Shown: positions 3,676 to 63,104 of the stretch, in pieces
How the letters are laid out: each line of letters starts with the position of its first letter
Position numbering within the stretch: the first letter of the stretch is position 1
Source: a virus
Reading direction: 5' to 3' (one strand)
Virus record (IMG/VR): IMGVR_UViG_3300017949_000004
Coordinates: 1 to 64,000 of that record
Length of the DNA stretch: 64,000 nucleotides
Position numbers and translations under genes: made by a program
Notes under the pieces: model-generated
Told to the model about the DNA's origin: nothing
Databases searched by the model: none
Seen by the model: the letters and a program-made list of their open reading frames with translations, nothing else

Positions 3676-3884
3676 TGTGGTCCCTCCGGTAATTCTTCAA
3701 ATCTTTTGTTAACCAATAGCTCTATGACTTTATCTCTATCAGTAAAAGCTACTCTCATATCGAATGACTCACACATTCCTGAGAACATTCCACCTTCTAG
3801 TTCTTGTAGAATTGAACTAGTGGTCATCTCACAAACATCATCGAAAATACTTTCGAGGATTCTTTCATTATGTAAACAACTCAT
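3672..3884 (-). CDS. Small acidic hypothetical protein, first gene of an early operon
   Basis: Seventy residues, acidic, no domain recognised. It is the first gene behind a near-consensus sigma70 promoter. The leader carries the ribosome binding motif GTGAGG about 10 bases before the ATG, a motif repeated before several other early first genes in this window. Confidence 0.65.
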   Translation of the reverse strand: MSCLHNERILESIFDDVCEMTTSSILQELEGGMFSGMCESFDMRVAFTDRDKVIELLVNKRFEELPEGPQ

Positions 3885-5993: not shown

Positions 5994-7316
5994 ATGGCAG
6001 ACCTCTCTAAATCAAAACTATTAGACGTAAAATATGGCGATGCTCGTGTCATTACCTTTGTATCTATCACAACAAAAGGAACAGGGCATACTGTTTTATC
6101 TAAGCATGGAGGTGGTAAGTATGTTCCTAAGAAGTTTATTATAGACGGCAAAGAATACATTGTAGGCAGAGTTCAAGAGTCAGCATTGGTTAGTGCAATA
6201 AAAGGACATAACAAGTTAATGATGGAAGATGCCTCAGGTAAACAAAGACCTTTAGGACACCTAGAAAAGACTATGGATTACAAGGAAGGCAAAGGTTATA
6301 ATCAAGGTGATATTGCTGAAGGTATATTTGGTGCAGCTATTACAGCTCGTTTCATTAATAAAAATAGGGACATCAGTGCTTCAGATGTAGAGAATGTATT
6401 AATGAAACTTAATAGGAATCCGAAGCAACAAATCAATTACAAATCAGCAAACGCCAACCCTGCTATTTTAGACGATATAGAGTTTGTATTAGGACTAGCA
6501 AAAAACAATATGGAAGCACTTGCTGATAGAAATATTAGAGCATTACCAGAAACAAAAAAGTTGGTAGAAGCCTCTGTAAAATATGCCAACGCAACTTATG
6601 TTAAGAAGTGGGCAAACTTAGTTTATGAAAACAATATCTATAATAGAGTACAAGTATTGTCCGATGGCTTGTCTGATCAAACAGGCACGAAGGTTGATGT
6701 TAGAGTGAAACTATCTAATCACGATAAGGAACTAAAAGACATTGACATCAATGTATCATTAAAAGCAGGAGATGTAAAACAGTTTGGACAAATAAGTGGA
6801 TCTGGTTTTGATGTACAAATAAAACTTTGGAAACAACTATTTGGAATGGATGTATCTAGACAAAGATCAACATATGAAGCCTTCCTAAAGAAATCAGAAA
6901 CTAAAAAGGCTGTTCAATTTATTTACAAACATGTTGCTACAGAAGTAGCTAAAAAATTTAGTGAAGACGACAAGGATACACTAAAAGCATTCGCAAGTGC
7001 CATACAATGGCATGCCACAAGAGATGAAAAACACGTTCAACTCGTACAATTAAAATCTGGTATGGCTAAAGTCTATACCTTTGACAACCTTGAAAAGGCA
7101 TTTGATAAGTTAGGTCCTTTCAAAGCAGAAATTAGAGTGGGATCTTCAGGACTACCACAAATGGATCTTTTTGCTAGAGGTATTAATACAGGAATACTTC
7201 GCATTCGTGTAAAGATTGAAACAAAAACTAACGGTGAATTATATTTTAGAAACATACTTGAAAAGCTAAATGGCTTAGGTGAGCTTATAGCTGAGTATGC
7301 TGGTGAGAATGAATAA
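5994..7316 (+). CDS. Large conserved-looking protein, possible PD-(D/E)xK nuclease
   Basis: This is a 440-residue soluble protein on the plus strand, against the direction of nearly every other gene. A helix with an invariant-looking Glu (GDIAEGIFGAAITARF, about residues 103-118) precedes a segment with alternating strand character, KDIDINVSLKAGDVKQFGQ (about 248-266). The spacing and the D...SLK core resemble the Glu helix and the D-x(n)-(E/S)xK core of restriction-endonuclease-like folds. That is inference from pattern only. A ribosome binding site (AAGGA) precedes the ATG, and the next gene overlaps its end. I do not recognise a named family. Confidence 0.7.
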   Translation: MADLSKSKLLDVKYGDARVITFVSITTKGTGHTVLSKHGGGKYVPKKFIIDGKEYIVGRVQESALVSAIKGHNKLMMEDASGKQRPLGHLEKTMDYKEGKGYNQGDIAEGIFGAAITARFINKNRDISASDVENVLMKLNRNPKQQINYKSANANPAILDDIEFVLGLAKNNMEALADRNIRALPETKKLVEASVKYANATYVKKWANLVYENNIYNRVQVLSDGLSDQTGTKVDVRVKLSNHDKELKDIDINVSLKAGDVKQFGQISGSGFDVQIKLWKQLFGMDVSRQRSTYEAFLKKSETKKAVQFIYKHVATEVAKKFSEDDKDTLKAFASAIQWHATRDEKHVQLVQLKSGMAKVYTFDNLEKAFDKLGPFKAEIRVGSSGLPQMDLFARGINTGILRIRVKIETKTNGELYFRNILEKLNGLGELIAEYAGENE

Positions 7317-8333: not shown

Positions 8334-9233
8334 CTAAAAATCTGTAATGACTTCCATCATATTACGCATTTTGTTTTTAATAAAATAATTTAACAACTGG
8401 CTTCTGTCTCCGCCCTGTTGTGCCTCATAACTATTTATAATAGCTTTCTTAATCTCATCCGGTGTTTTGGATAAATCCACTAACAACTGATTCCTTGTAA
8501 ATCCAGAAGCCATCTCCGAATTTATAACAAACTCCTCGGGCTTTTGCTTTTTCCATTCTGCAAGCAAGGCCCTTTTAATAGGACGTTGACGTTTACCTTC
8601 TACAAAAGTATCATCTTCAGATAGCATATTAGGAATGCCGTCGCCTTTGTCTCCTGTAATGATATGTTCCATTAACACTTGAGAAGCAGGCTCTTTAATC
8701 TTAACCCATTTCTTAAATGCAGGAGCATACTGTTTAACATTAGAATACTTCTGCAGTTGATTAAAGTCGTGATCTCCACTAATAATTAAAAAGGGTTCAG
8801 GCTCTGGATCATCAAACAATCCACCTGTGCCTTTTCCAGATGTTTGACTATACTCAGCAAGCGTGCCAATAACATCATCTGCTTCTGCACCTTCTACATC
8901 AATACAGGGATAGGGGAAGAACTCATCTAGTTCATTTCTAATTTGATTTAGTGCCTCAAATATAGAGTTCCAATCTAGAGGACTTTCCTCCCTACCCTTT
9001 TTACGATGTGCCTTATAATAAGGAAAGTAATCACGTCTCCAGTATCTACGATTATCCATAGCCAGTACAAGATTGCCATACTCCTCGCTAAACTTTACAT
9101 TATACGAGCGAATTGTATTAATAATCATATGTCGCAACAAAGGCAAGTCTACGTCTACAGACACATCTTTACGCCCCCCTATTTCTGCCATGAAGTTAGC
9201 AATGGCAGTCTGATTAAAATCTACAACTATCAT
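8334..9233 (-). CDS. rnh: T4 RNase H-like 5'-3' exonuclease
   Basis: The 299-residue size and motifs fit T4 RNase H, a FEN1-type 5' nuclease that removes RNA primers from lagging-strand fragments. Visible metal-binding and substrate motifs are VDFNQTA at the N-terminus, FPYYKAHRKK around residue 72, EGAEADDVIG around 113, SGDHDFNQLQ around 152 and TGDKGDGIPN around 193. The start overlaps the upstream gene by four bases (ATGA). It works with the primase, helicase and polymerase encoded elsewhere in the window. Confidence 0.9.
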   Translation of the reverse strand: MIVVDFNQTAIANFMAEIGGRKDVSVDVDLPLLRHMIINTIRSYNVKFSEEYGNLVLAMDNRRYWRRDYFPYYKAHRKKGREESPLDWNSIFEALNQIRNELDEFFPYPCIDVEGAEADDVIGTLAEYSQTSGKGTGGLFDDPEPEPFLIISGDHDFNQLQKYSNVKQYAPAFKKWVKIKEPASQVLMEHIITGDKGDGIPNMLSEDDTFVEGKRQRPIKRALLAEWKKQKPEEFVINSEMASGFTRNQLLVDLSKTPDEIKKAIINSYEAQQGGDRSQLLNYFIKNKMRNMMEVITDF

Positions 9234-10336
9234 TGCTTTACCTTTAACAATACAGAGTTAGGCTGTACCCTTGTTCTAACTGTCATTTTCTTACCACGTA
9301 CAGACTCCATAAACTTATGTAGTCCATTAATCCTACATGCCATAAATTTAGGAATAACCTCCTCGGGTTTCCTAACTGTTTTCTCATAGGATGTCGTGCC
9401 ATAGTTTTCAATAGCTGTACCCTTAACTCCTAAACCACCTGCAAAGTCAGAGGCATATACACCTAAGCGTTTACGTTTAACATCATAGTACCATACTTCT
9501 GAGGAGCCTATAATGTCCACAGGATTGATACTTACAATATCTAGTTCTTTAAACTCCTTTAGAAACCTAAGACGTTTAACAACTTTGTTCTTATCTGTAG
9601 GACGCTTTTTCCTAATGCGTGTAATTTTCTTAGCCTGCTGAGACTGCATGACAGACGTTTCAACGTCTGTATACATCTGTATCAGTTTCTTTGTATTGGG
9701 CTTGCTAATGTGCGAGTAGCCTTCTACTAACTGTTCGTCCCAGTCTGATCTATTTGTCATCTGTCTAACAGTTTGTAGTTCTTCCAACTCGCCTTTCCAG
9801 CCGCCTAGTATATCAAACAATTCTTGTGTCTCAGCTCTGTTCAGTCCACATGTAGATACAACATTCCAATTGACTGGGACCTTACCTGTCTCAATAAAAT
9901 CATCAACACATTTCTCAATGTACTCTAATGCGTTAGGTAAGTTTTCTCGTATTCTAACAACTTTAGGCTTTTCCTCAGATGCTTCAATTTTTTCTGCACC
10001 TTTACTCGCCCAAGGTTCTTTCTTTTTCTCAATAAACTCAACACAAGAAGTAGGCATGTAACCTACTTTACTTTCTATAAAGGCATACTTACCTACGTGT
10101 GAAAATGTGGAGTCAGTCAATTTTAAAATGTTTGTAATGTCTTGCTTGTCCCAGCCAGACTTTTTACGCATCCATTCCTTAAAAGACTTAATGAGAGTTT
10201 TGTCTGCTATTTCATAATGTACAAAATAGCCTAGTTCTTGAAAAGCTTTTTCTCGTTGCTGTTCATCTGTTATAGATTGGTATTTACTCCAATCTGGTTC
10301 TGTAAGCACATAGGTACTACGTTTTCTTTTTGCCAT
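9230..10336 (-). CDS. Conserved hypothetical protein next to RNase H
   Basis: This is a 368-residue, Lys/Arg-rich soluble protein with several basic clusters (KKITRIRKKRP near residue 235) that would suit nucleic-acid binding. The N-terminal third resembles a helical DNA-associated region (SGWDKQDITNILKL). It is the first gene behind a consensus early promoter at 10370-10398 and is coupled to RNase H by a 4-base overlap. I do not recognise the family, although a protein in this position is usual in T4-like marine phages. Confidence 0.7.
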   Translation of the reverse strand: MAKRKRSTYVLTEPDWSKYQSITDEQQREKAFQELGYFVHYEIADKTLIKSFKEWMRKKSGWDKQDITNILKLTDSTFSHVGKYAFIESKVGYMPTSCVEFIEKKKEPWASKGAEKIEASEEKPKVVRIRENLPNALEYIEKCVDDFIETGKVPVNWNVVSTCGLNRAETQELFDILGGWKGELEELQTVRQMTNRSDWDEQLVEGYSHISKPNTKKLIQMYTDVETSVMQSQQAKKITRIRKKRPTDKNKVVKRLRFLKEFKELDIVSINPVDIIGSSEVWYYDVKRKRLGVYASDFAGGLGVKGTAIENYGTTSYEKTVRKPEEVIPKFMACRINGLHKFMESVRGKKMTVRTRVQPNSVLLKVKQ

Positions 10337-10690: not shown

Positions 10691-11615
10691 TTTTTCTCTT
10701 CCTATCTATTAACCATTTAAGTTCTCTTTCTTTGGCTTTGTCCATTCTAGAAGAAGAACCATATTTTAAGGATACCCAAGAGTCTTCACCTTCATCTTTC
10801 TTTTTTTTAGGTTCCTCAGTAGTGCTTATATTAAACTCTTCAGGCTCTTTTGTCAATGCCTCTTCTCCCAAAAAGGTAATCTGCTCTCCATTGCGCTGGG
10901 CCCAACTCATATTGGCAGCTACAACTAATAGAATGGCTAATGGATCAAATACAAATATTAACAACATAATGATTATTCTAACTGCACTATCTACAGCGTT
11001 CTTAGTAGACTCAGAATAAAATAGTTCTGCGATGTATTTTATTGGACCTAACTCTGCATCCATAACAGCTACTTCCTGCCTCTTTGGCAGCAACTGTAAG
11101 TTCAAGGCGTCTATATTAGCAACTGCCTCGTCCATTTCTGCATTTAATTGTTCTCTTTCTTCTCTCTGTGTTCTGTTCACATAGTTTTTATCTTCACCAC
11201 GTGATGTTCTCAGAGTATCATCAAGCCCTGCAATACGATCTCTTGCCTGTTGTAGTTTACCTCTCTCTGCTTCTAGTCTAAACTCAATTACTTCCATATT
11301 TAAGGTGTAGTCTTGATTAACAGCCGTTTGATCTATATGTGCTCTAGACAAGTAACCAAAGATACCTATAGAAGTAATAAAGGATAAAACAATTACAGCT
11401 AATGTAAAATAGGATTTTAATAGTTTAGTGGCGGTATGCCAATACCTATAAACCCATGACGCTGTAACAAGTTTGGCAATTTCCAATACAACACCCATTG
11501 CAATAATCTCCGCATAAGCTGCGGGGAATATCGTGGTTAATCCAATTATAGAAAAGTATGCTGCTACAGATGATACTGCAAGAGCGGATGTTAATAAAAG
11601 TAAAATAAAAGCCAT
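10674..11615 (-). CDS. Multi-pass membrane protein with coiled-coil region
   Basis: The 313-residue protein has hydrophobic segments near residues 2-25, 32-55, 68-92 and 212-235. A long charged helical stretch in the middle (about 105-185) looks like a coiled coil, and the cytoplasmic C-terminal tail is Lys/Glu-rich. The topology (three N-terminal spans, coiled coil, one more span) recalls uncharacterised DUF4407-like membrane proteins. It overlaps the next gene by 17 bases. The role is unknown; remodelling of the host membrane is possible. Confidence 0.7.
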   Translation of the reverse strand: MAFILLLLTSALAVSSVAAYFSIIGLTTIFPAAYAEIIAMGVVLEIAKLVTASWVYRYWHTATKLLKSYFTLAVIVLSFITSIGIFGYLSRAHIDQTAVNQDYTLNMEVIEFRLEAERGKLQQARDRIAGLDDTLRTSRGEDKNYVNRTQREEREQLNAEMDEAVANIDALNLQLLPKRQEVAVMDAELGPIKYIAELFYSESTKNAVDSAVRIIIMLLIFVFDPLAILLVVAANMSWAQRNGEQITFLGEEALTKEPEEFNISTTEEPKKKKDEGEDSWVSLKYGSSSRMDKAKERELKWLIDRKRKNAKRN

Positions 11616-14919: not shown

Positions 14920-15899
14920 GAAACTCCCCAAACATCCGACCAATCTCCGGACAATGCACCCCGTGCATAGTCTGTTGCTCTGTTCTCAAAGAAGTTTGTA
15001 TGGGTCGGGGCGTTGATCATTTCCTCTACCCAAGGCAAAGGATTCTTTTTAACTTTAAAAATACCTCTCATACCTAAACTAATAAGACGTCTGTCTGCAA
15101 TATAACGAATATACTTTTTAACTTCCTCGGGTGTCAATCCTTCCATAGGACCCATAGCAAATGCTAAATCAATAAACTTATCTTCAAGCTCTACCATCTT
15201 TTCTGCAATAGTGTAAATCTGAGACTTCAGTTTGTCATTCCAAATATCTAGATTTTCTTGTACATATTCTTTAAACAACTTAATCATGTTCTCAGCATGC
15301 TGTGTTTCATCAACGATAGACCATGTAATAATCTGTCCCATTCCTTTCATCTTGCCATGACGTGGAAAGTTTAACAACATAATGAATGATGAAAAGAGTT
15401 GCATGCCTTCCGTGAAGGCAGAGAAAGCGGCAATGTTAGTTGCAACAGATTCTCTTGTGCCATTGGCATTAGACAGATCAGTAAAGTAATCGTGCTTATC
15501 GCGCATAGCCTCATATTCAAGAAATTCATTGTAAGTAGACTCCGGCATTCCTAGTGTTTCAATTAAATGGCTATAGGCAGCAACATGTAGTGCTTCCCTT
15601 GCCGCAAATCCAGCAAGCATCATTCTTATTTCTGGTTGTGGGAAATAAGGTAAATAATTTGTTACATAGCCACCTGCAACATCAATATCTCCCTGTGTGA
15701 AAAAGCGAAAGATGTTTGTGAGGAAAGCCTGTTCCTCTTTTGTTAAACGATTCTTCCAATCCTTTACGTCTTCTCCCATAGGAACTTCGGTGTGTAGCCA
15801 ATGAGACTGCTCGTGTTTTAGCCAAGCATCATAGGCCCATGGGTAATTGAAGGGCTTAAAATAAGTCCTTTCGTCTGTTAGTTTTAATTTTTTTGACAT
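14916..15899 (-). CDS. nrdB: Ribonucleotide reductase class I small subunit
   Basis: The 327-residue protein matches NrdB. Iron ligands are visible in REALHVAAYSHLIE (Glu and His) and VDETQHAENM (Glu and His), with FTQGDIDVAGGY upstream. NrdB holds the di-iron tyrosyl radical cofactor that starts catalysis in NrdA. It is separated from NrdA by the two PP-loop genes, an unusual break in the nrd cluster. Confidence 0.92.
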   Translation of the reverse strand: MSKKLKLTDERTYFKPFNYPWAYDAWLKHEQSHWLHTEVPMGEDVKDWKNRLTKEEQAFLTNIFRFFTQGDIDVAGGYVTNYLPYFPQPEIRMMLAGFAAREALHVAAYSHLIETLGMPESTYNEFLEYEAMRDKHDYFTDLSNANGTRESVATNIAAFSAFTEGMQLFSSFIMLLNFPRHGKMKGMGQIITWSIVDETQHAENMIKLFKEYVQENLDIWNDKLKSQIYTIAEKMVELEDKFIDLAFAMGPMEGLTPEEVKKYIRYIADRRLISLGMRGIFKVKKNPLPWVEEMINAPTHTNFFENRATDYARGALSGDWSDVWGVS

Positions 15900-53826: not shown

Positions 53827-54381
53827 TTACTTACCAATTCGCTCTTTAATGTCAGCGGTATCATTTAGTGTAAGTTCAATGTGCCGTCCACCTTTCAAAT
53901 AAGTTAGCACAGTTTGAGGATCAGATACTTCATATGGATCCTCAGGGTGGTTTGCAGATTTACCTGGCTCTTCAAACAGCTTTTCTACTTCGCCGTTATT
54001 AACAACCATTGCATATCTCCAAGACCTAATACCAAAGCCTAAATTGTCTTTGGCGACAAGCATATTCATAGAATGTGTAAACTTAGCAGAACCATCTGGG
54101 ATAAGTTTAACATTTTTAATTCCCAAGTCCTTTGCCCACGCATTCATTACAAAAGTGTCGTTGACACTTAGGCAATATACTTCGTCAATGCCATGCGCTT
54201 TAAACTCATCATAGAGTTCGTCATAGCCAGGTAATTGATAGTTAGAACATGTAGGAGTAAATGCACCTGGCAGTGCAAACAATACTACACGCTTACCTTC
54301 AAATACTTCTTTAGATGTTAGTTCAGCCCATTCGCTATCTACACGAACAGGCCAACTAAGATCAGATACTAAATTAAGCAT
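53827..54381 (-). CDS. Peroxiredoxin (Prx5-like)
   Basis: The 184-residue protein has PGAFTPTCS with peroxidatic Cys 45, a GIRSWRYAMVV segment containing the conserved Arg, and VYCLSVND, matching Prx5-type peroxiredoxins that reduce peroxides. It lies inside the replisome operon between gp45 and gp44, an uncommon insertion. It may protect the phage enzymes, including ribonucleotide reductase, from oxidative damage; that is inference. Confidence 0.85.
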   Translation of the reverse strand: MLNLVSDLSWPVRVDSEWAELTSKEVFEGKRVVLFALPGAFTPTCSNYQLPGYDELYDEFKAHGIDEVYCLSVNDTFVMNAWAKDLGIKNVKLIPDGSAKFTHSMNMLVAKDNLGFGIRSWRYAMVVNNGEVEKLFEEPGKSANHPEDPYEVSDPQTVLTYLKGGRHIELTLNDTADIKERIGK

Positions 54382-55963: not shown

Positions 55964-56480
55964 CTGTTAATCTCAAATAAGTAAATAAGATATATCTATC
56001 TTTTGTATCCTCTGGAATGCACAGCTTATGTAAAAATGTGCATGGGAAAATAGATATATCACCTCGAACGTGCGGTAAGTCTGCACCTGCTATTGGGAGC
56101 TTAATAAATCCGTCGGTACTATTTAGTGTACACAATAGCATCCAACGTCTTTTATGTGTACCATAGTTATCAAAGAAGGATTGTACTTCTACACCTTTAG
56201 GTATTTTACAAAGGTAAGGTGCTTCCCATTCTAAACTTTCATGTTCTAAATCATCATGAAGCGGTGCCTCTTCCATTAGTCCTTTGTATGAACCTAGTAC
56301 AGAATTAAAATTATTATACATACCTGCCATAGGTTTTAATGCCCCTACGTCAGTATGTATTTTTATTCCTCCGGCATCTACTGCCGTTTTTAGACCTTTT
56401 TTGGATATAGATACGAGCTCCCGACAAACATCTGCCGGGAGTGCTTTTCCGAACCTACGAATAAAGTTAGAAAGTTTCAT
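55944..56480 (-). CDS. 2OG-oxygenase-fold-like protein
   Basis: The 178-residue protein has a late portion GDISIFPCTFLHKLCIPEDT and DRYILFTYLRL that resembles the distal half of a 2OG-Fe(II) fold with His and Arg. The proximal HxD is not obvious, since the candidate region reads YGTHKRRWMLL. It may be a degenerate or redirected member. Confidence 0.55.
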   Translation of the reverse strand: MKLSNFIRRFGKALPADVCRELVSISKKGLKTAVDAGGIKIHTDVGALKPMAGMYNNFNSVLGSYKGLMEEAPLHDDLEHESLEWEAPYLCKIPKGVEVQSFFDNYGTHKRRWMLLCTLNSTDGFIKLPIAGADLPHVRGDISIFPCTFLHKLCIPEDTKDRYILFTYLRLTDAKAQL

Positions 56481-57636
56481 CGAACTCGTCTTGCTCCTGT
56501 GCTTCTATAGGCTGAGGATTAGTTGGATCAACCTTTGTATACAAATCTACAAACGCTGCCTTTGTATCCTCATCAAACCTATTTACACAAAGTTGAACAG
56601 CCTTTAGCTTGTCTTTAAACATGGCGTATGCGTTTACAATGTGCTCAAGTCGACGGGTACTAACTAGCTCGTCTATGGCACCCTCGAAGTAAGTCTTACG
56701 AATTACCTCGGACCATGTTACAAGGTGTGTAGCAAATTCTTCATCTATACACTCTGCCTTAGCCATCTTGTTGAGAACAATCTTTTTCTCAACGGCTGCT
56801 GTAGGATACTCCTGCTCCACGGTGATAGCAAACCTCTCCAGGAACGCCTCGTCTAATAGTTGGGCGCTGATAAATTTGCCGTCATCTGAACCACGGCCTT
56901 TTGTATTAGCGGTTGCTACTACTGTAAACCCTGGAGCAGGAGCGACGGTCTCGCCAGTCTTCTTGTTGAAATACGCTTTACCTTCAAGGATGGCCTGGAG
57001 ACACATCAACTTGTTGGATCCGCGGTCTACTTCATCAAGGATAAGAACCGCGCCACGTTTCATGGCGGTGAGGACCGGTCCTTCTCGATAGACGACGTTA
57101 CCATCAACTAGGGTATTGCCACCGATCAAATCATCTTCGTCGGTTTCAATACTAATGTTTACACGAATCGCCTCACGTTTTAGATTCGCACATACTTGTT
57201 CTACCATCGTAGTCTTACCGTTACCGGAGAGACCTGAGATAAAAATTGGATAAAACATTGCTGACTCTAATACACGCTTAAGGTCTCGGTAGAAACCAAA
57301 TGGGACAAATGTCGTGTCCTTCTGCGGTACCAAGTTCTGAATGTCTACGGTTAGTTTTGCCTGTGTAACAACCTTAGCCTCAGGAGTAACAACCTCAAGG
57401 ATTGGCTTGGCTACAGGCTTAGGTGCGCTAACAATTGGAGACATGTTACCTTGGAACATGCCTGCTAGGTTATAAACACCTCGGCTAATTTTATAGTCGT
57501 CCTTGTTGACAATCCAACCTGGAAAAGCTAGTCCAAGTTCTTCGGCTGTCCTAAGGATGTCAATACGCTTAAAGATGCCATCGGCATTGTCTTTTTCTTT
57601 AAGAGCATTAATAAGTATTTTACGATCATTTTGCAT
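56467..57636 (-). CDS. cobS: CobS-like AAA+ ATPase
   Basis: The 389-residue protein has a Walker A GLSGNGKTTMV at about residues 140-150, Walker B ILDEVDRG near 205 and sensor 1 VVATANTKG, typical of the MoxR/CobS branch of AAA+ ATPases. I start at the ATG at 57636, which follows GTGAGGAC, over a GTG 15 bases earlier. It pairs with the CobT-like protein 125 bases upstream. In marine T4-like phages such pairs are common, but a role in cobalamin synthesis is doubtful; see findings. Confidence 0.85.
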   Translation of the reverse strand: MQNDRKILINALKEKDNADGIFKRIDILRTAEELGLAFPGWIVNKDDYKISRGVYNLAGMFQGNMSPIVSAPKPVAKPILEVVTPEAKVVTQAKLTVDIQNLVPQKDTTFVPFGFYRDLKRVLESAMFYPIFISGLSGNGKTTMVEQVCANLKREAIRVNISIETDEDDLIGGNTLVDGNVVYREGPVLTAMKRGAVLILDEVDRGSNKLMCLQAILEGKAYFNKKTGETVAPAPGFTVVATANTKGRGSDDGKFISAQLLDEAFLERFAITVEQEYPTAAVEKKIVLNKMAKAECIDEEFATHLVTWSEVIRKTYFEGAIDELVSTRRLEHIVNAYAMFKDKLKAVQLCVNRFDEDTKAAFVDLYTKVDPTNPQPIEAQEQDEFDETF

Positions 57637-57679
57637 AATATAAGTCCTCACAAATATATCAATTTCTTCAGTTTATGTG

Positions 57680-57730
57680 TATATGATAGCACCTTTTACG
57701 CTAAAAGTCAAGCATTTTTTTGACTTTTTT
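57680..57730. repeat. 51-bp repeat carrying the cobS promoter (copy 1)
   Basis: An exact 51-base copy occurs at 60005-60055. It holds the promoter and an inverted repeat, AAAAGTCAA and TTGACTTTT, with an eight-base spacer, whose right arm contains the -35 box on the minus strand. Confidence 0.85.
57683..57711 (-). promoter_or_regulatory. Early sigma70-type promoter of cobS
   Basis: TTGACT at 57706-57711, a 17-base spacer ending GTGC and TATCAT at 57683-57688 form an extended -10 promoter in front of the CobS-like gene. Confidence 0.82.
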
Positions 57731-57760
57731 GCATCTTTTTTGCCCAAGTATATCAACATG

Positions 57761-59971
57761 TTAGGCTACCATATCCATAAAGGTATTCAAAAACACCTTG
57801 TTCTGTACTTTATTCTTGTTGAAATTGCGGAAGCCTCGGAGAAGATCGCCCTTACTGTTGGATTTCACTTCTAGTTCTGTTTCCTCAATATTGAGCGCTG
57901 ATCCACCCTTGAGGAGTATCCTGGCATCAAAGCCTATAACATCGTTTACAACAAGCATTCCTTTGCTACGACTATCTTTCCAGAGATCCTCAAAATCTGT
58001 CCAGGTAGCTTTAGGGTTGTTCATGCGATAGTAAATATTAAACTCGTTTTCAACGCAATTCTTATTCCAATGAGTTAGGTAGAAGTTCACAACTCTAGAA
58101 CCTGTGTATTGCTTGTAAATTTCTAACAAGCAAGCTGTCTGTTGAGCCCAAGTTCTAGCATAATAGTTATACTTGGAAGTAATGTGAATGCCTTTGTAGC
58201 GTGCTGTGACGTTACCTGTGTTCATATAATCTGGATATGAACCATCTTCGATTCTATATTTCAAGCTGTCTGTAGCACTGCCGTCTGTAATGAATATGCT
58301 ATTCAATACCTGTACCTTATGCTTCTGCCTAAACTCTTTGGCAATTTGCATTCCTAAGATAATTGTAGAATTAAGAGGAGTGCCTGAAAAATCTAGATGT
58401 TTGGTAGCAACTTCTGACCAAATTTTCTGATCTCGGTATGCTTTGCGATTGAGAAAACATTGCTTAAGCAACAGCATGTGTTTCATAGCCATTTTTGTTT
58501 GAGAAGCAGACCAAGTAGAATTAAATAACTCTCTTAGTTTACAGTCTGAAGTCTGTAGACATGCCTCACCAATTTCGGGGGAGTTGGCATATACGTTTTC
58601 GCCTTCAGCACCCCAAAGATCTGCTGTAGTAAATCCATATACTTCATATGGAATGTTTACTTTACGACAGAACATAATTTGAATGAGTAGCTGATCAACG
58701 GTGCCTGCAAAGTGATTGTGCATACTACCCGACATATCTACATACATAAGCATGCCGTGATTCTTACCTTCAGGAACCATAGTGGATTGCTTAAACAAAT
58801 CCTCAGATATTTTGTATGCCCACAGCTTGTTTTCGTTAAGGTCTCCTGTCTTGCTCATACGAATTTTAGACAGTACCTTTGCTTTGCGCTTCATTTCAAA
58901 CTGTTGAACCATATGATTAACATGGCTGGTATTAGTTCTAAGGAACTCTTTGTACAAGTCGTTGCCATAGTCATCGTTATTCATCTTGGTGCCCTGGCGC
59001 CATCCATCTGCATAGAAATTGAATGCCTTGTGTATATCACCGTAAATTTCTTTACCTGTAATTAGATGATCTTTCCAGTTTGACATTGTAGGAACATCAA
59101 AGTAACTATGCTTTTCGCTTTCTTTCTTAACCAACTTGTCTTCGTTCTGACGAAATGCCTCATCTGTAAGTGAAGTTGGCTCGTCGGATCTGATTGCATC
59201 TCGAACATTATTAGATGCCATATTGTCCTGTGGCTCTTCCTCTTCTTCAGACGAGGATTCAGCGTCACCTGAAGTTGAACCTTCTTCCTCGGTCTCTTCT
59301 TCTTCGGACTCTTCGTCTTGTTCGCCAAAGTTTGAAGTCATTTCACCGAAATCTTCTTCGTCTATTTCTTCAAGTTCTTCGTCGCTAAAGTTTGAAGACA
59401 AGCTTTCTTTGTCTTTTTCTAGATCTTCTGTAGCCTGTCCGTATATATCTTGAGCAAGAGCTTCTACGTCTTCCCAAGTTTCGGTTTTCAAACAACGATC
59501 TACAAGCAATTGTTCTGCATCTGTAAATTGAATGTTTAAAAAAGAGCCAACTTTAAAGTGTAGGTTAATCCGATCAATGAGGGGAAGTGTATTGGGGTCT
59601 AAATCTTTGACACCGAAAAAGTCTCGATTGAAAAGTTCTCGATATCCTTCGTAAAAAGACTTAACAAGGCCTGGATACATTGCCTTAATCTTACGTTCAA
59701 TCCTAGCATCTTCAACAACATTAAGAAAAGGCTTAAGGCGCTGATCGTCTACAATAGCGTCATGCCAACCTTGTTGAGGAGTGTTGAGTGCGTGGGATAC
59801 TTCGTGTCCTACAAGCAGATCGTACAAGGAAGCGTTGATGTCGCCCCAATTAGGTAATACGATTTTACGAGTTTTGAGATCAAAAGCTGCGGTAGGGACA
59901 TTACGATGTTCAATCTTAAGGTCCTCGGTCGCTAACAGCTTTGCTAATATTGATTTTGTTTCTATTAACAT
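57761..59971 (-). CDS. cobT: CobT-like protein with HExxH and VWA domains
   Basis: The 736-residue protein has an N-terminal HEVSH motif (residues 56-60) that fits a zinc metalloprotease helix. A long Asp/Glu-rich region follows (about residues 195-250, with EEEE and DEES runs). A C-terminal von Willebrand A domain has the metal motif DMSGSM (about 412) and later conserved Thr and Asp positions. This is the CobT/MoxR-partner architecture. The gene follows a promoter nearly identical to that of cobS and has a GTGAGGAC site. HExxH is not a normal part of CobT. Confidence 0.85.
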   Translation of the reverse strand: MLIETKSILAKLLATEDLKIEHRNVPTAAFDLKTRKIVLPNWGDINASLYDLLVGHEVSHALNTPQQGWHDAIVDDQRLKPFLNVVEDARIERKIKAMYPGLVKSFYEGYRELFNRDFFGVKDLDPNTLPLIDRINLHFKVGSFLNIQFTDAEQLLVDRCLKTETWEDVEALAQDIYGQATEDLEKDKESLSSNFSDEELEEIDEEDFGEMTSNFGEQDEESEEEETEEEGSTSGDAESSSEEEEEPQDNMASNNVRDAIRSDEPTSLTDEAFRQNEDKLVKKESEKHSYFDVPTMSNWKDHLITGKEIYGDIHKAFNFYADGWRQGTKMNNDDYGNDLYKEFLRTNTSHVNHMVQQFEMKRKAKVLSKIRMSKTGDLNENKLWAYKISEDLFKQSTMVPEGKNHGMLMYVDMSGSMHNHFAGTVDQLLIQIMFCRKVNIPYEVYGFTTADLWGAEGENVYANSPEIGEACLQTSDCKLRELFNSTWSASQTKMAMKHMLLLKQCFLNRKAYRDQKIWSEVATKHLDFSGTPLNSTIILGMQIAKEFRQKHKVQVLNSIFITDGSATDSLKYRIEDGSYPDYMNTGNVTARYKGIHITSKYNYYARTWAQQTACLLEIYKQYTGSRVVNFYLTHWNKNCVENEFNIYYRMNNPKATWTDFEDLWKDSRSKGMLVVNDVIGFDARILLKGGSALNIEETELEVKSNSKGDLLRGFRNFNKNKVQNKVFLNTFMDMVA

Positions 59972-60004
59972 ATTAAGAATGTCCTCACATTTCTATATTA
60001 TGTC

Positions 60005-60055
60005 TATATGATAGCACCTTTTACGCTAAAAGTCAAGCATTTTTTTGACTTTTTT
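60005..60055. repeat. 51-bp repeat carrying the cobT promoter (copy 2)
   Basis: An exact 51-base copy of 57680-57730, with the same inverted repeat around the -35 box. Flanking bases differ outside the repeat. Confidence 0.85.
60008..60036 (-). promoter_or_regulatory. Early sigma70-type promoter of cobT
   Basis: TTGACT at 60031-60036, a 17-base spacer ending GTGC and TATCAT at 60008-60013 precede the CobT-like gene start at 59971. Confidence 0.82.
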
Positions 60056-60075
60056 TGCCTAATAAAATCAAGCAC

Positions 60076-60435
60076 TTAGTGCTGATGATCGCAGTCTTTA
60101 TGCTTTAGGGCTTCAATTGCTACCTTTCCGCACCCTTGATATCCTGCCCACTGTGAGCTACAAGGGAACGCATTGGAGTATGCCTCATAATGGCTATGGG
60201 CACGTCTTCGGTAAGTGTAATGTGTATGATGCGGATTAGGTACCACTACAGTATGTCCATCTACAATAACTACCGTGCTAGAGTTACCATGGTGATGATG
60301 GTCTTCTCGACGTTCCAAAGCTTTTCCAATAAAAACTCCGCCGATAACACCGGCAATGACATCTTTAGTGTCTGCCGCTTCTGCCGGCAATGTTATTAAA
60401 GATGCTGCTAGACCTGCAATAACTAATTTTTTCAT
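60076..60435 (-). CDS. Secreted His-rich glycine-zipper protein
   Basis: The 119-residue protein starts with a signal peptide (MKKLVIAGLAASLITLPAEA). A glycine zipper follows (IAGVIGGVFIGKALE), and the rest is very His-rich (DHHHHGN, HHTH, HKDCDHQH) with several Cys. This suggests a periplasmic metal-binding or membrane-associated protein. It is preceded by its own sigma70-type promoter (60460-60488) and a GGAG site. Confidence 0.75.
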   Translation of the reverse strand: MKKLVIAGLAASLITLPAEAADTKDVIAGVIGGVFIGKALERREDHHHHGNSSTVVIVDGHTVVVPNPHHTHYTYRRRAHSHYEAYSNAFPCSSQWAGYQGCGKVAIEALKHKDCDHQH

Positions 60436-60459: not shown

Positions 60460-60488
60460 ATAATAAATGTTTTAATACCATTTGTCAA
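60460..60488 (-). promoter_or_regulatory. Sigma70-type promoter
   Basis: TTGACA at 60483-60488, a 17-base spacer and TATTAT at 60460-60465 precede the secreted His-rich gene. Confidence 0.72.
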
Positions 60489-60953: not shown

Positions 60954-61648
60954 GTACTGCTCCTTTTAAACCTGTATACTGTTAAACCACCATTCCGGTA
61001 ATTTAATATATTTTTTAAATTTACAAAATTGTTCTTCTTACTAGGATGTATTTCTATAACATCAAAGTCAGAGAAATAACCTATAAATTCTTTATTGGAA
61101 AAACTTGTTTCAAACGGTGCCTCTTCTTGATCTTTTCTTAAAAGTTCTGATCTGTATTTTACGTTAATAATTTTTTTGACAATCTTTCCAAATTTATTAT
61201 AAACACCTAACACCAAAGTTCCTTCCTGTGATAACATGCTTTTTATTTTTATAATAGCATCGTAATACATTGGCATATGATGTATTACTCCATTACTTAT
61301 AATACAATCATATTTTTTACGTTTATCAAAATCAAAAAAGTTTTTCTTTTCATAAACTACATTTTTTAATTTGTGTTTTTTACTAAACTCTTTTGCATAA
61401 TCAATTGAATCACTGAAGTCTACGCCAAGAAACTTTTTACTAGGATATTTATATGCCAAGTAGTTTGTTATAAACCCTGTACCACAACCTATATCTAAAA
61501 TATTTTCTTTATCCTGTATAGCACGTTCGTACATGGATAAAAATTTATTGGTGTATCCATTGTTATAGTAATCAAAGTTATCTATTGTATATGGTCCAGG
61601 AAACTTTATTTTACTATAAAAGTCCTTGACCTCATTTTCAAGGTTCAT
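60950..61648 (-). CDS. SAM-dependent methyltransferase
   Basis: The 232-residue protein has a class I Rossmann motif ILDIGCGTGFITNYL at about 48-62, GVDFSDSIDYA, and IISNGVIHHMP. The rest is more Lys/Phe/Tyr-rich and AT-rich than its neighbours, which may mark recent acquisition. The substrate (DNA, protein or small molecule) cannot be told from sequence. Confidence 0.8.
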   Translation of the reverse strand: MNLENEVKDFYSKIKFPGPYTIDNFDYYNNGYTNKFLSMYERAIQDKENILDIGCGTGFITNYLAYKYPSKKFLGVDFSDSIDYAKEFSKKHKLKNVVYEKKNFFDFDKRKKYDCIISNGVIHHMPMYYDAIIKIKSMLSQEGTLVLGVYNKFGKIVKKIINVKYRSELLRKDQEEAPFETSFSNKEFIGYFSDFDVIEIHPSKKNNFVNLKNILNYRNGGLTVYRFKRSST

Positions 61649-62205
61649 TTTTTCTTTGTGCCACTTTTATTTCTTTTTTCCAAACGTTTAATCACTTCAT
61701 TGGCATCCATCCAAAAGTCTTTTCCTTCCACAACTTGATCTATCTCAGTTTTAGTCATAAACCCTGAGTAAACGCTATGTAATAAATTATTAGCCCAAGC
61801 GTGTTCAGCAAGTGCTCTTGAAATTAATTCGTTTCCTTTACCCCAATTACCTGCTGAATAATTATGAATTAGAAACTGAGAATGTTCTGAAACCTCGCAA
61901 ACATCTGCCGTTAAAAATAAGAATGTTGCTGCTGACATGCAGGCTCCTTCTACAGAAGCAACCACGGTTCCTTTACATTCGCCTATTGCTCGCATCAACT
62001 GTATGGTTGTCATTATATCACCACCATAACAATTAATATGAAAAATTATGTAATCGTTTTCGCCTGCTGATCTAATAGACTGATTCCATAACACATAATC
62101 TTTAGGGCTTTCTATTGTATCGTTTAGATAAAAATCTAAAACTCTACCACCTGTTCTTTCAAAAATTCCTGCTTCTACATTTACATTGACATTAGATTCG
62201 TTCAT
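61645..62205 (-). CDS. ClpP-like serine protease
   Basis: The 186-residue protein has the S14 family pattern: FHINCYGGDIMTTIQLM, the nucleophile Ser in EGACMSAATFLF near residue 93, the catalytic His in FLIHNYS near 118 and a later Asp. Phage ClpP proteins often act in capsid maturation or protein turnover; in T4-like marine phages a ClpP-like gene is common. It overlaps the next gene by 14 bases. Confidence 0.87.
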   Translation of the reverse strand: MNESNVNVNVEAGIFERTGGRVLDFYLNDTIESPKDYVLWNQSIRSAGENDYIIFHINCYGGDIMTTIQLMRAIGECKGTVVASVEGACMSAATFLFLTADVCEVSEHSQFLIHNYSAGNWGKGNELISRALAEHAWANNLLHSVYSGFMTKTEIDQVVEGKDFWMDANEVIKRLEKRNKSGTKKK

Positions 62206-62564: not shown

Positions 62565-63104
62565 TTAGACTCCTTTTATATTATTTATGTTCCTTTTGAA
62601 ACGCTTAATTTTTTTGTCTAAGGCTTTTAATGCTCTGTCAAGTTTAAATTTAGATACTCGCATTGTAAAATTTTTACCTAACATGTGATCGTATTCGTGT
62701 AAGGCAATTCTTCCTGCAAGTGATTTGAATGTTTCAAAGACTTCTTTACCTTCAGTGTCTGTATATCTAAAGGTTGCTTCAGTTGGCCTGTTTACATGTA
62801 ACCACAATCCAGGAAAGGACAAACACCCCTCTTTTTCTATAGATGTTTCATCACTTACAGATACTAGCAAAGGATTAAATAGAATACGATTAAAGCCTTC
62901 CGCTTGAGGAATATTAATAGTAAAGACTGCCATATCTAATCCTACTTGGTTAGCTGAGAGTCCTGCACCATTGAGCTCTTGTGTTCTCTCTAAAAGAACC
63001 TTTGCTACTTCTTTAGCATCGTGTTCCTCATAATTGAAAGGACTAGGAGTCTTTCTTAATAGCTCATGTCCAAAAGGCAGTAATTGTAATTCTTCTTTAT
63101 TCAT
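62565..63104 (-). CDS. Peptide deformylase
   Basis: The 179-residue protein has GAGLSANQVG near residue 46, EGCLSFPGLW near 93 and HEYDHMLG near 135, the three deformylase motifs with the Cys and two His metal ligands and the catalytic Glu. It removes the formyl group from nascent proteins, helping phage translation, and is a known feature of marine T4-like phages. It overlaps the glutaredoxin end by eight bases. Confidence 0.92.
   Translation of the reverse strand: MNKEELQLLPFGHELLRKTPSPFNYEEHDAKEVAKVLLERTQELNGAGLSANQVGLDMAVFTINIPQAEGFNRILFNPLLVSVSDETSIEKEGCLSFPGLWLHVNRPTEATFRYTDTEGKEVFETFKSLAGRIALHEYDHMLGKNFTMRVSKFKLDRALKALDKKIKRFKRNINNIKGV
62582..62589 (-). promoter_or_regulatory. Late promoter variant (CATAAATA)
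   Basis: CATAAATA lies 19 bases before the gene starting at 62563. The first base departs from the consensus. Confidence 0.4.

Follow-up and report, generated by a model that had tools for sequence, protein, structure and literature searches.

Two identical sigma70-type promoter copies before the AAA+ and VWA genes of a T4-type phage, and matched pairs at the same sites in related lineages

Promoter-early stem-loop cassettes (PeSLs), reportedly treated by Arbiol in 2010 and by Comeau in 2014, are among the described systems closest to the promoter repeat analysed here. According to a citing paper (PMC4503421), these cassettes are placed in RB49, phi1 and other T4-like phages, and early-promoter repeats of this kind persist in T4-type phages. 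The repeat of the present window (the whole stretch of viral DNA analysed, 64 kb long) consists of copy T, before a VWA gene, and copy S, before an AAA+ gene. T and S resemble PeSLs in being short repeated promoters of early type and possible recombination sites in a T4-type phage, but differ in that only two exact copies exist, copy S is without a clear terminator stem-loop, and the flanked genes are conserved rather than hypervariable, with no shuffling seen. The early promoters of T4, described as UP/-35/TGn/-10 promoters, share with T and S the sigma70-type elements, an A-rich upstream region, TG before the -10 and many copies per genome (PMC2988021); unlike these, the -35 of the present promoters (TTGACT/TTGACA) is preceded by TGC, in both T and S, and the 51-bp identity of the pair extends well past the consensus positions.

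The two genes recall the MoxR-type AAA+/VWA pairs (CobS/CobT, NorQ/NorD and CbbQ/CbbO), since the AAA+ protein matches the solved structures of CobS (2e-21), NorQ (6e-12) and midasin (8e-42, over four stretches), and the predicted fold of the VWA domain is nearest to NorD and to the midasin MIDAS. A difference from these pairs is that the phage VWA protein carries an N-terminal HExxH motif that is conserved and gives no significant match to the CobT family, so that a chelatase role would be putative. Peptidase, CobS, sliding clamp and clamp loader follow one another as they do in cyanomyoviruses and pelagimyophages (Kyanoviridae), and the annotations of Pelagibacter phage Mosig and Synechococcus phage S-WAM1 give this order too. 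These two isolates, the ones inspected, differ from the window phage in carrying other upstream sequence types; in S-WAM1, each of the two sites has a GC-rich stem together with TATACTAT. Repeated T4-type early promoters are already known as places of gene shuffling; at the present locus, two copies appear to be kept matched while both change, before two genes whose products probably work together as partners. The promoter pair is real and biologically coherent, akin to the known repeated early promoters of T4-type phages, and carries a signal of concerted evolution.

The duplicated promoter and its genes

Table 1. Features of the locus, with positions in the window
Feature	Position	Strand	Remark
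Promoter copy T, 5' of the VWA ('CobT') gene	60005..60055	-	51-bp identity to copy S; TTGACT-17-TATCAT, TG before -10
-35 hexamer TTGACT, copy T	60031..60036	-	
-10 hexamer TATCAT, copy T	60008..60013	-	
Promoter copy S, 5' of the CobS-type AAA+ gene	57680..57730	-	Exact identity; promoter elements
-35 hexamer TTGACT, copy S	57706..57711	-	
-10 hexamer TATCAT, copy S	57683..57688	-	
A-rich UP-element-like module AAAAAAGTCAAAAAAATGC, directly 5' of -35	57712..57730	-	Close variants at other phage promoters
9-bp inverted repeat AAAAGTCAA-N8-TTGACTTTT	57703..57728 (copy S); 60028-60053 (copy T)	.	Read in the sequence
VWA protein, HExxH N-terminal domain, PHROG 459 'peptidase' (the earlier note's CobT)	57761..59971	-	
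MoxR/CobS-type AAA+ ATPase, PHROG 249	56467..57636	-	
Ribosome-binding site GTGAGGAC of the AAA+ gene	57644..57651	-	Read in the sequence
Weak terminator-like stem-loop AGCACTAAGTGCT, spanning the 119-aa gene's stop codon, immediately 5' of copy T	60071..60083	-	
Probably exported His-rich protein of 119 aa; its gene lies between that for lysozyme and copy T	60076..60435	-	
TTGACA-17-TATTAT promoter of the 119-aa gene	60460..60488	-	More distant relative of the class

Sequence comparison bears out the earlier note on this DNA, which had reported 51 identical bases about 2.3 kb apart: copies T and S agree over exactly 51 nt at an offset of 2325, and on either side of both the similarity falls sharply to background. 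No other stretch of 18 nt or longer is directly repeated without mismatch in the window, where the longest repeat expected by chance is about 16 nt and the expected number of 51-nt pairs is about 2e-20, and the 46-nt core of the pair has exactly 2 copies in the whole 92-kb record. That the promoter was duplicated by an assembly artefact, a doubt raised in the same note, found no supporting point and is practically excluded, because independent assemblies carry the same copies: both stand in unique flanks in metagenome assemblies 3300017956 and 3300023170, and in 3300018421 and 3300019281 one copy each is present at the contig end, where the contig stops inside cobT. At this locus the independent assemblies agree with the window at 99.96-99.98% along as much as 11 kb, and they leave the copies unchanged.

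On the minus strand, where all genes at the locus lie, each copy has the layout AAAAAAGTCAAAAAAATGC-TTGACT-TTTAGCGTAAAAGGTGC-TATCAT-ATA, with 10/12 matches to the sigma70 consensus at a 17-bp spacing, and can be read from these elements as a complete UP-like/-35/-10 promoter of sigma70 type. The identity of T and S stops 3 bases past the -10, and the transcribed leaders differ. A T4 MotA-type middle promoter, where the MotA box lies about 12 bp from the -10 and replaces the -35 (PMC2988021), was considered and rejected on account of the wrong spacing (TGCTTGA is 19 nt from the -10) and the presence of a full -35.

A 9-bp inverted repeat had been described as enclosing the -35 box; it is indeed present in both copies, but the box sits inside one arm (57703-57711 in copy S) and not between the arms, so that the right arm on the minus strand consists of this box and three further bases. 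It is highly unlikely that this palindrome is a phage repressor operator or a small terminator, which the repeats exist to carry, even though the inverted repeat is perfect in both copies, the RNA hairpin predicted for the window reaches -9.4 kcal/mol (z about -3.6) and the arms match at 8/9 in the nearest relatives. The controls show inverted repeats at the -35 just as often: for the -35 nonamer, the best complement lying upstream matches on average at 5.68/9 positions, against 5.70 in shuffled and 5.68 in swapped sequences (81 promoters, eight genomes); the hairpins of the relatives are no stronger than those of shuffles; the coding strand has no U-run after the palindrome; and another promoter of the phage, a third one, carries an A-rich module almost identical to this one but lacks the palindrome, because there the module is followed by TTGACAAAT. 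The inverted repeat is judged to be an incidental by-product of the A-rich module adjoining TTGACTTTT. A spacer dyad, CTCTT...AAGAG, noticed on visual inspection of G007, G008 and G012, was rejected, with no clear excess over left/right swaps within the genome.

In the direction of transcription, the lysozyme gene (60953-60507) is followed by the promoter of the 119-aa gene, this gene, copy T, the VWA gene, copy S, the AAA+ gene and then genes toward gp45 and gp44; the locus is the conserved gp45/gp44 block (sliding clamp, clamp loader) of a T4-type, Kyanoviridae-like phage. The ribosome-binding sequence of the AAA+ gene recurs 5' of the VWA gene at 59981-59988, and the AAA+ (CobS) start is better set at the ATG at 57634-57636, after that site, than at the GTG of the open reading frame list. 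The stem-loop upstream of copy T is weak, with a 5-bp stem; neither a terminator stem-loop at copy S nor a terminator-like site between cobT and cobS was found. A His-rich gene similar to that of the window is present in G010, and its promoter is close to the T/S pair; the nearest relatives have an extra 684-bp gene between the VWA gene and promoter S (L006:7217-7900 and L010:7217-7900). Genes for a peroxiredoxin, a ClpP-like protease and a peptide deformylase lie around the window locus in the same direction (53827-54381, 61645-62205 and 62565-63104).

The AAA+ protein matches PF07728 (AAA_5) with an E value of 7e-17, and its 77 bits are far below the CobS equivalog cut-off of 558 bits, which places it among the MoxR/CobS-type ATPases and leaves CobS itself unproven. 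Among 30 sequences of the VWA protein, HExxH is nearly invariant, and E87, D88, R90 and E92, as well as the MIDAS residues D412-S414-S416 (DxSxS), are invariant. No CobT match above cut-off was obtained for it in Pfam or NCBIfam, and CobT_C appeared in one of seven homologues with an insignificant E value of 0.11. Since the sequence profile gave no solved relative, the structure was predicted (pLDDT 76), and the best structural matches of the model include NorD VWA domains and the MIDAS domain of midasin (MDN1). The earlier description of CobS- and CobT-like genes holds for a CobS-type AAA+ gene with a VWA gene; 'CobT' is a loose name, best taken to mean the VWA partner of a MoxR ATPase. The 57761-59971 protein combines the conserved HExxH motif at its N-terminus, an acidic linker and the VWA MIDAS domain, and, from these motifs and the predicted fold, it is possibly a metalloprotease driven by the MoxR ATPase.

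Promoter pairs in related lineages

Copies T and S belong to a genome-wide class of early-type promoters. The window and the 162-kb relative G001 contain many TGCTTGAC[AT]-17-TATAAT promoters on the same strand (in the G001 record, nine TGCTTGAC[AT]-17-TAT[AC]AT sites), several of them with variants of the A-rich module, AAGTCAAAAAAATGC, and the spelling is lineage-specific, as with AGAGTGCATAAT in G007, G008 and G012. The resemblance of these promoters to the T4 early promoters (PMC2988021) points to early timing. This gives a usable description of early promoters for marine T4-type phages that are uncultured, a group in which promoters have so far been predicted poorly; for pelagimyophages, prediction failed for middle and late promoters (PMC7029224).

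In close relatives, whose CobS is 85% identical at the amino-acid level, the promoters at these two sites also match each other, here through a 27-mer of another spelling, AAAAAAAGTGCGTTTTTTGCTTGACTT. The comparison of the same interval in relatives found no close relative with one copy, and the matched promoters at both genes, which the earlier note knew from this DNA, are a duplicated pair that recurs across the phage group. For 26 lineages, not fully independent because ancestry is shared, the T-S identity is 0.65 within genomes and 0.475 (T-T), 0.489 (S-S) and 0.472 (T-S) between genomes; the within-genome mean is reached by 0 of 10,000 permutations. The longest shared exact tract, taken from the 130 nt upstream of each start with no promoter position assumed, is 19.3 nt within and 10.0 between genomes (31 loci; 0 of 10,000 permutations). 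Exact tracts of 20-33 bp recur at both sites, with a sequence and a position that vary by lineage: the A-rich region and -35 in L006, the stretch from -35 to -10 in L057 and L069, and the -10 and leader in L032 and L036. In the more distant lineages, freshwater and cyanophage-like, T and S match hardly or not at all.

When all the promoter pairs within each genome are ranked, T-S comes first in five of eight genomes (out of 325, 120, 66, 36 and 36 pairs), takes second place in two and, in the remaining one, stands fifth among 15. The 17-nt spacers of T and S match at 17/17 positions in G001, where the mean at other promoters is 5.9, at 16/17 in G007 and at 14/17 in G010, and no other pair in these genomes equals them; one other pair ties in G009 and G012, and several are equal or better in G004 and G008. 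In the window, the pair is 100% identical over 51 bp and the next promoter 67% in a 69-nt comparison. Third promoters reach an identity of 0.7-0.8 in some lineages, and part of the T-S signal is therefore lineage-wide class consensus; beyond this consensus, which does exist, T and S match each other further in most lineages, though not in all. A third promoter that closely resembles the T/S pair is located in L142 (G004) at 15674, in L139 (G011) at 3694 and in L135 (G009) at 11579, before a gene for a RENYG(A/S)HDWDGKG product in G004 and G011 and for a 173-aa protein in G009.

How the two sites may stay matched

The preferred reading, to which a probability of roughly 0.6 may be given, is that T and S are copies of one strong sigma70-like (host-type) early promoter module, re-matched by short-tract recombination and selected to be strong and early. 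One copy would serve each AAA+/VWA partner gene, so that the two genes would be started separately, early in infection, with read-through from the first promoter (T) probably adding to the expression of cobS. The copies would be identical now through recent copying of one sequence over the other and, across the phage group, the two sites would have been re-matched several times with different sequences, by recurrent gene-conversion-like copying of short tracts between the two promoters, while selection would keep both strong and early. Matched spacers together with shifting tracts are explained better by copying than by independent selection. No recombination intermediate or conversion polymorphism was seen in the available assemblies, whose near-clonality at the locus (2-4 SNPs in 11 kb) accounts for this.

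The wider proposal, that T and S evolve in concert throughout a wide group of marine T4-type phages, by recurrent short-tract gene conversion between sites 2-3 kb apart, with the sequence turning over between lineages while the matching within genomes persists, stands at about even odds; nothing specific on concerted evolution of phage promoters was found in the literature. If true, the locus would be a compact natural system for the homogenisation of regulatory DNA by phage recombination, and would raise the question of whether the co-regulation of an enzyme pair is kept by copying rather than by independent selection.

Selection with no recombination between the copies, holding the same sequence at both sites for a fixed AAA+:VWA proportion, seems unlikely. 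It would agree with the matched pair in many lineages and with AAA+/VWA pairs such as NorQ/NorD acting as one complex (PDB entries), but the identity includes spacer positions that are free to vary elsewhere, as in G001, and the contiguous tracts shift place between lineages. Equal output, moreover, would not follow from the identical promoters, as the leaders differ and nothing was found that stops read-through into cobS, which should also be transcribed from T given the lack of a terminator-like site behind cobT; the equal stoichiometry foreseen in the earlier note is accordingly not supported. Convergence, where the host polymerase dictates a lineage consensus to which all strong early promoters drift, T and S being simply two such promoters, is an improbable account as well: the genome-wide class with its lineage-specific spellings and the third members at 0.7-0.8 are in agreement with it, whereas the rank of T-S as best or second-best pair in 7/8 genomes, and the distance between the window pair and the next promoter, are not.

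A PeSL-type mobile cassette, a promoter/stem-loop module whose recombination shuffles the intervening genes, is a quite doubtful explanation, given that copy S shows no clear terminator stem-loop, that the copies flank conserved genes instead of forming a dense array in a hyperplastic region, and that no contig, among few, has cobT shuffled out; these points weigh against the repeated sigma70-like early promoter in a T4-type phage, the weak stem-loop just upstream of copy T and the variation of nearby gene content by lineage (the extra gene of the L006/L010 group), which would favour it. Deletion of cobT between the repeats, also envisaged previously, finds no example, every contig with a copy (few contigs) keeping cobT adjoining, and the expectation that such repeats are normally lost is at odds with the short early-promoter repeats that persist in T4-like phages (PMC4503421). 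A contig with CobS at 99% and a different upstream sequence (L026) was considered as a possible deletion recombinant; only its first ~60-90 bases, at the contig end, differ, and these do not contain the sequence upstream of T.

Other promoters and repeats in the group

A second promoter class has GGT[AC][AC] 13-15 nt upstream of the -35, often before replication and related genes, for example before the gp45 clamp and gp43 polymerase genes; in the window it is found at about 55300, 49830, 37220, 34090 and 10410, and it is also present in G001, G004, G007, G008, G009 and G012. The motif occurs upstream of 24/98 promoters (5.6 expected in shuffles), at 13-15 nt in 21 of the 24, and, from its sequence and placement, it could be the site of a putative middle-type activator. 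Genes named by eye as QueE-like and FolE-like, with sigma70-type promoters of their own, occur in G001, G007 and G012, hinting at deazaguanine DNA modification in these phages. In a cyanophage-type relative (L013), the stem-loop GTGCCAGTCAAAAAACTGGCAC occurs three times within 3 kb (7138-7162, 8714-8738 and 10108-10132); one of these copies lies between cobT and cobS, and the repeat is terminator-like and reminiscent of PeSLs.
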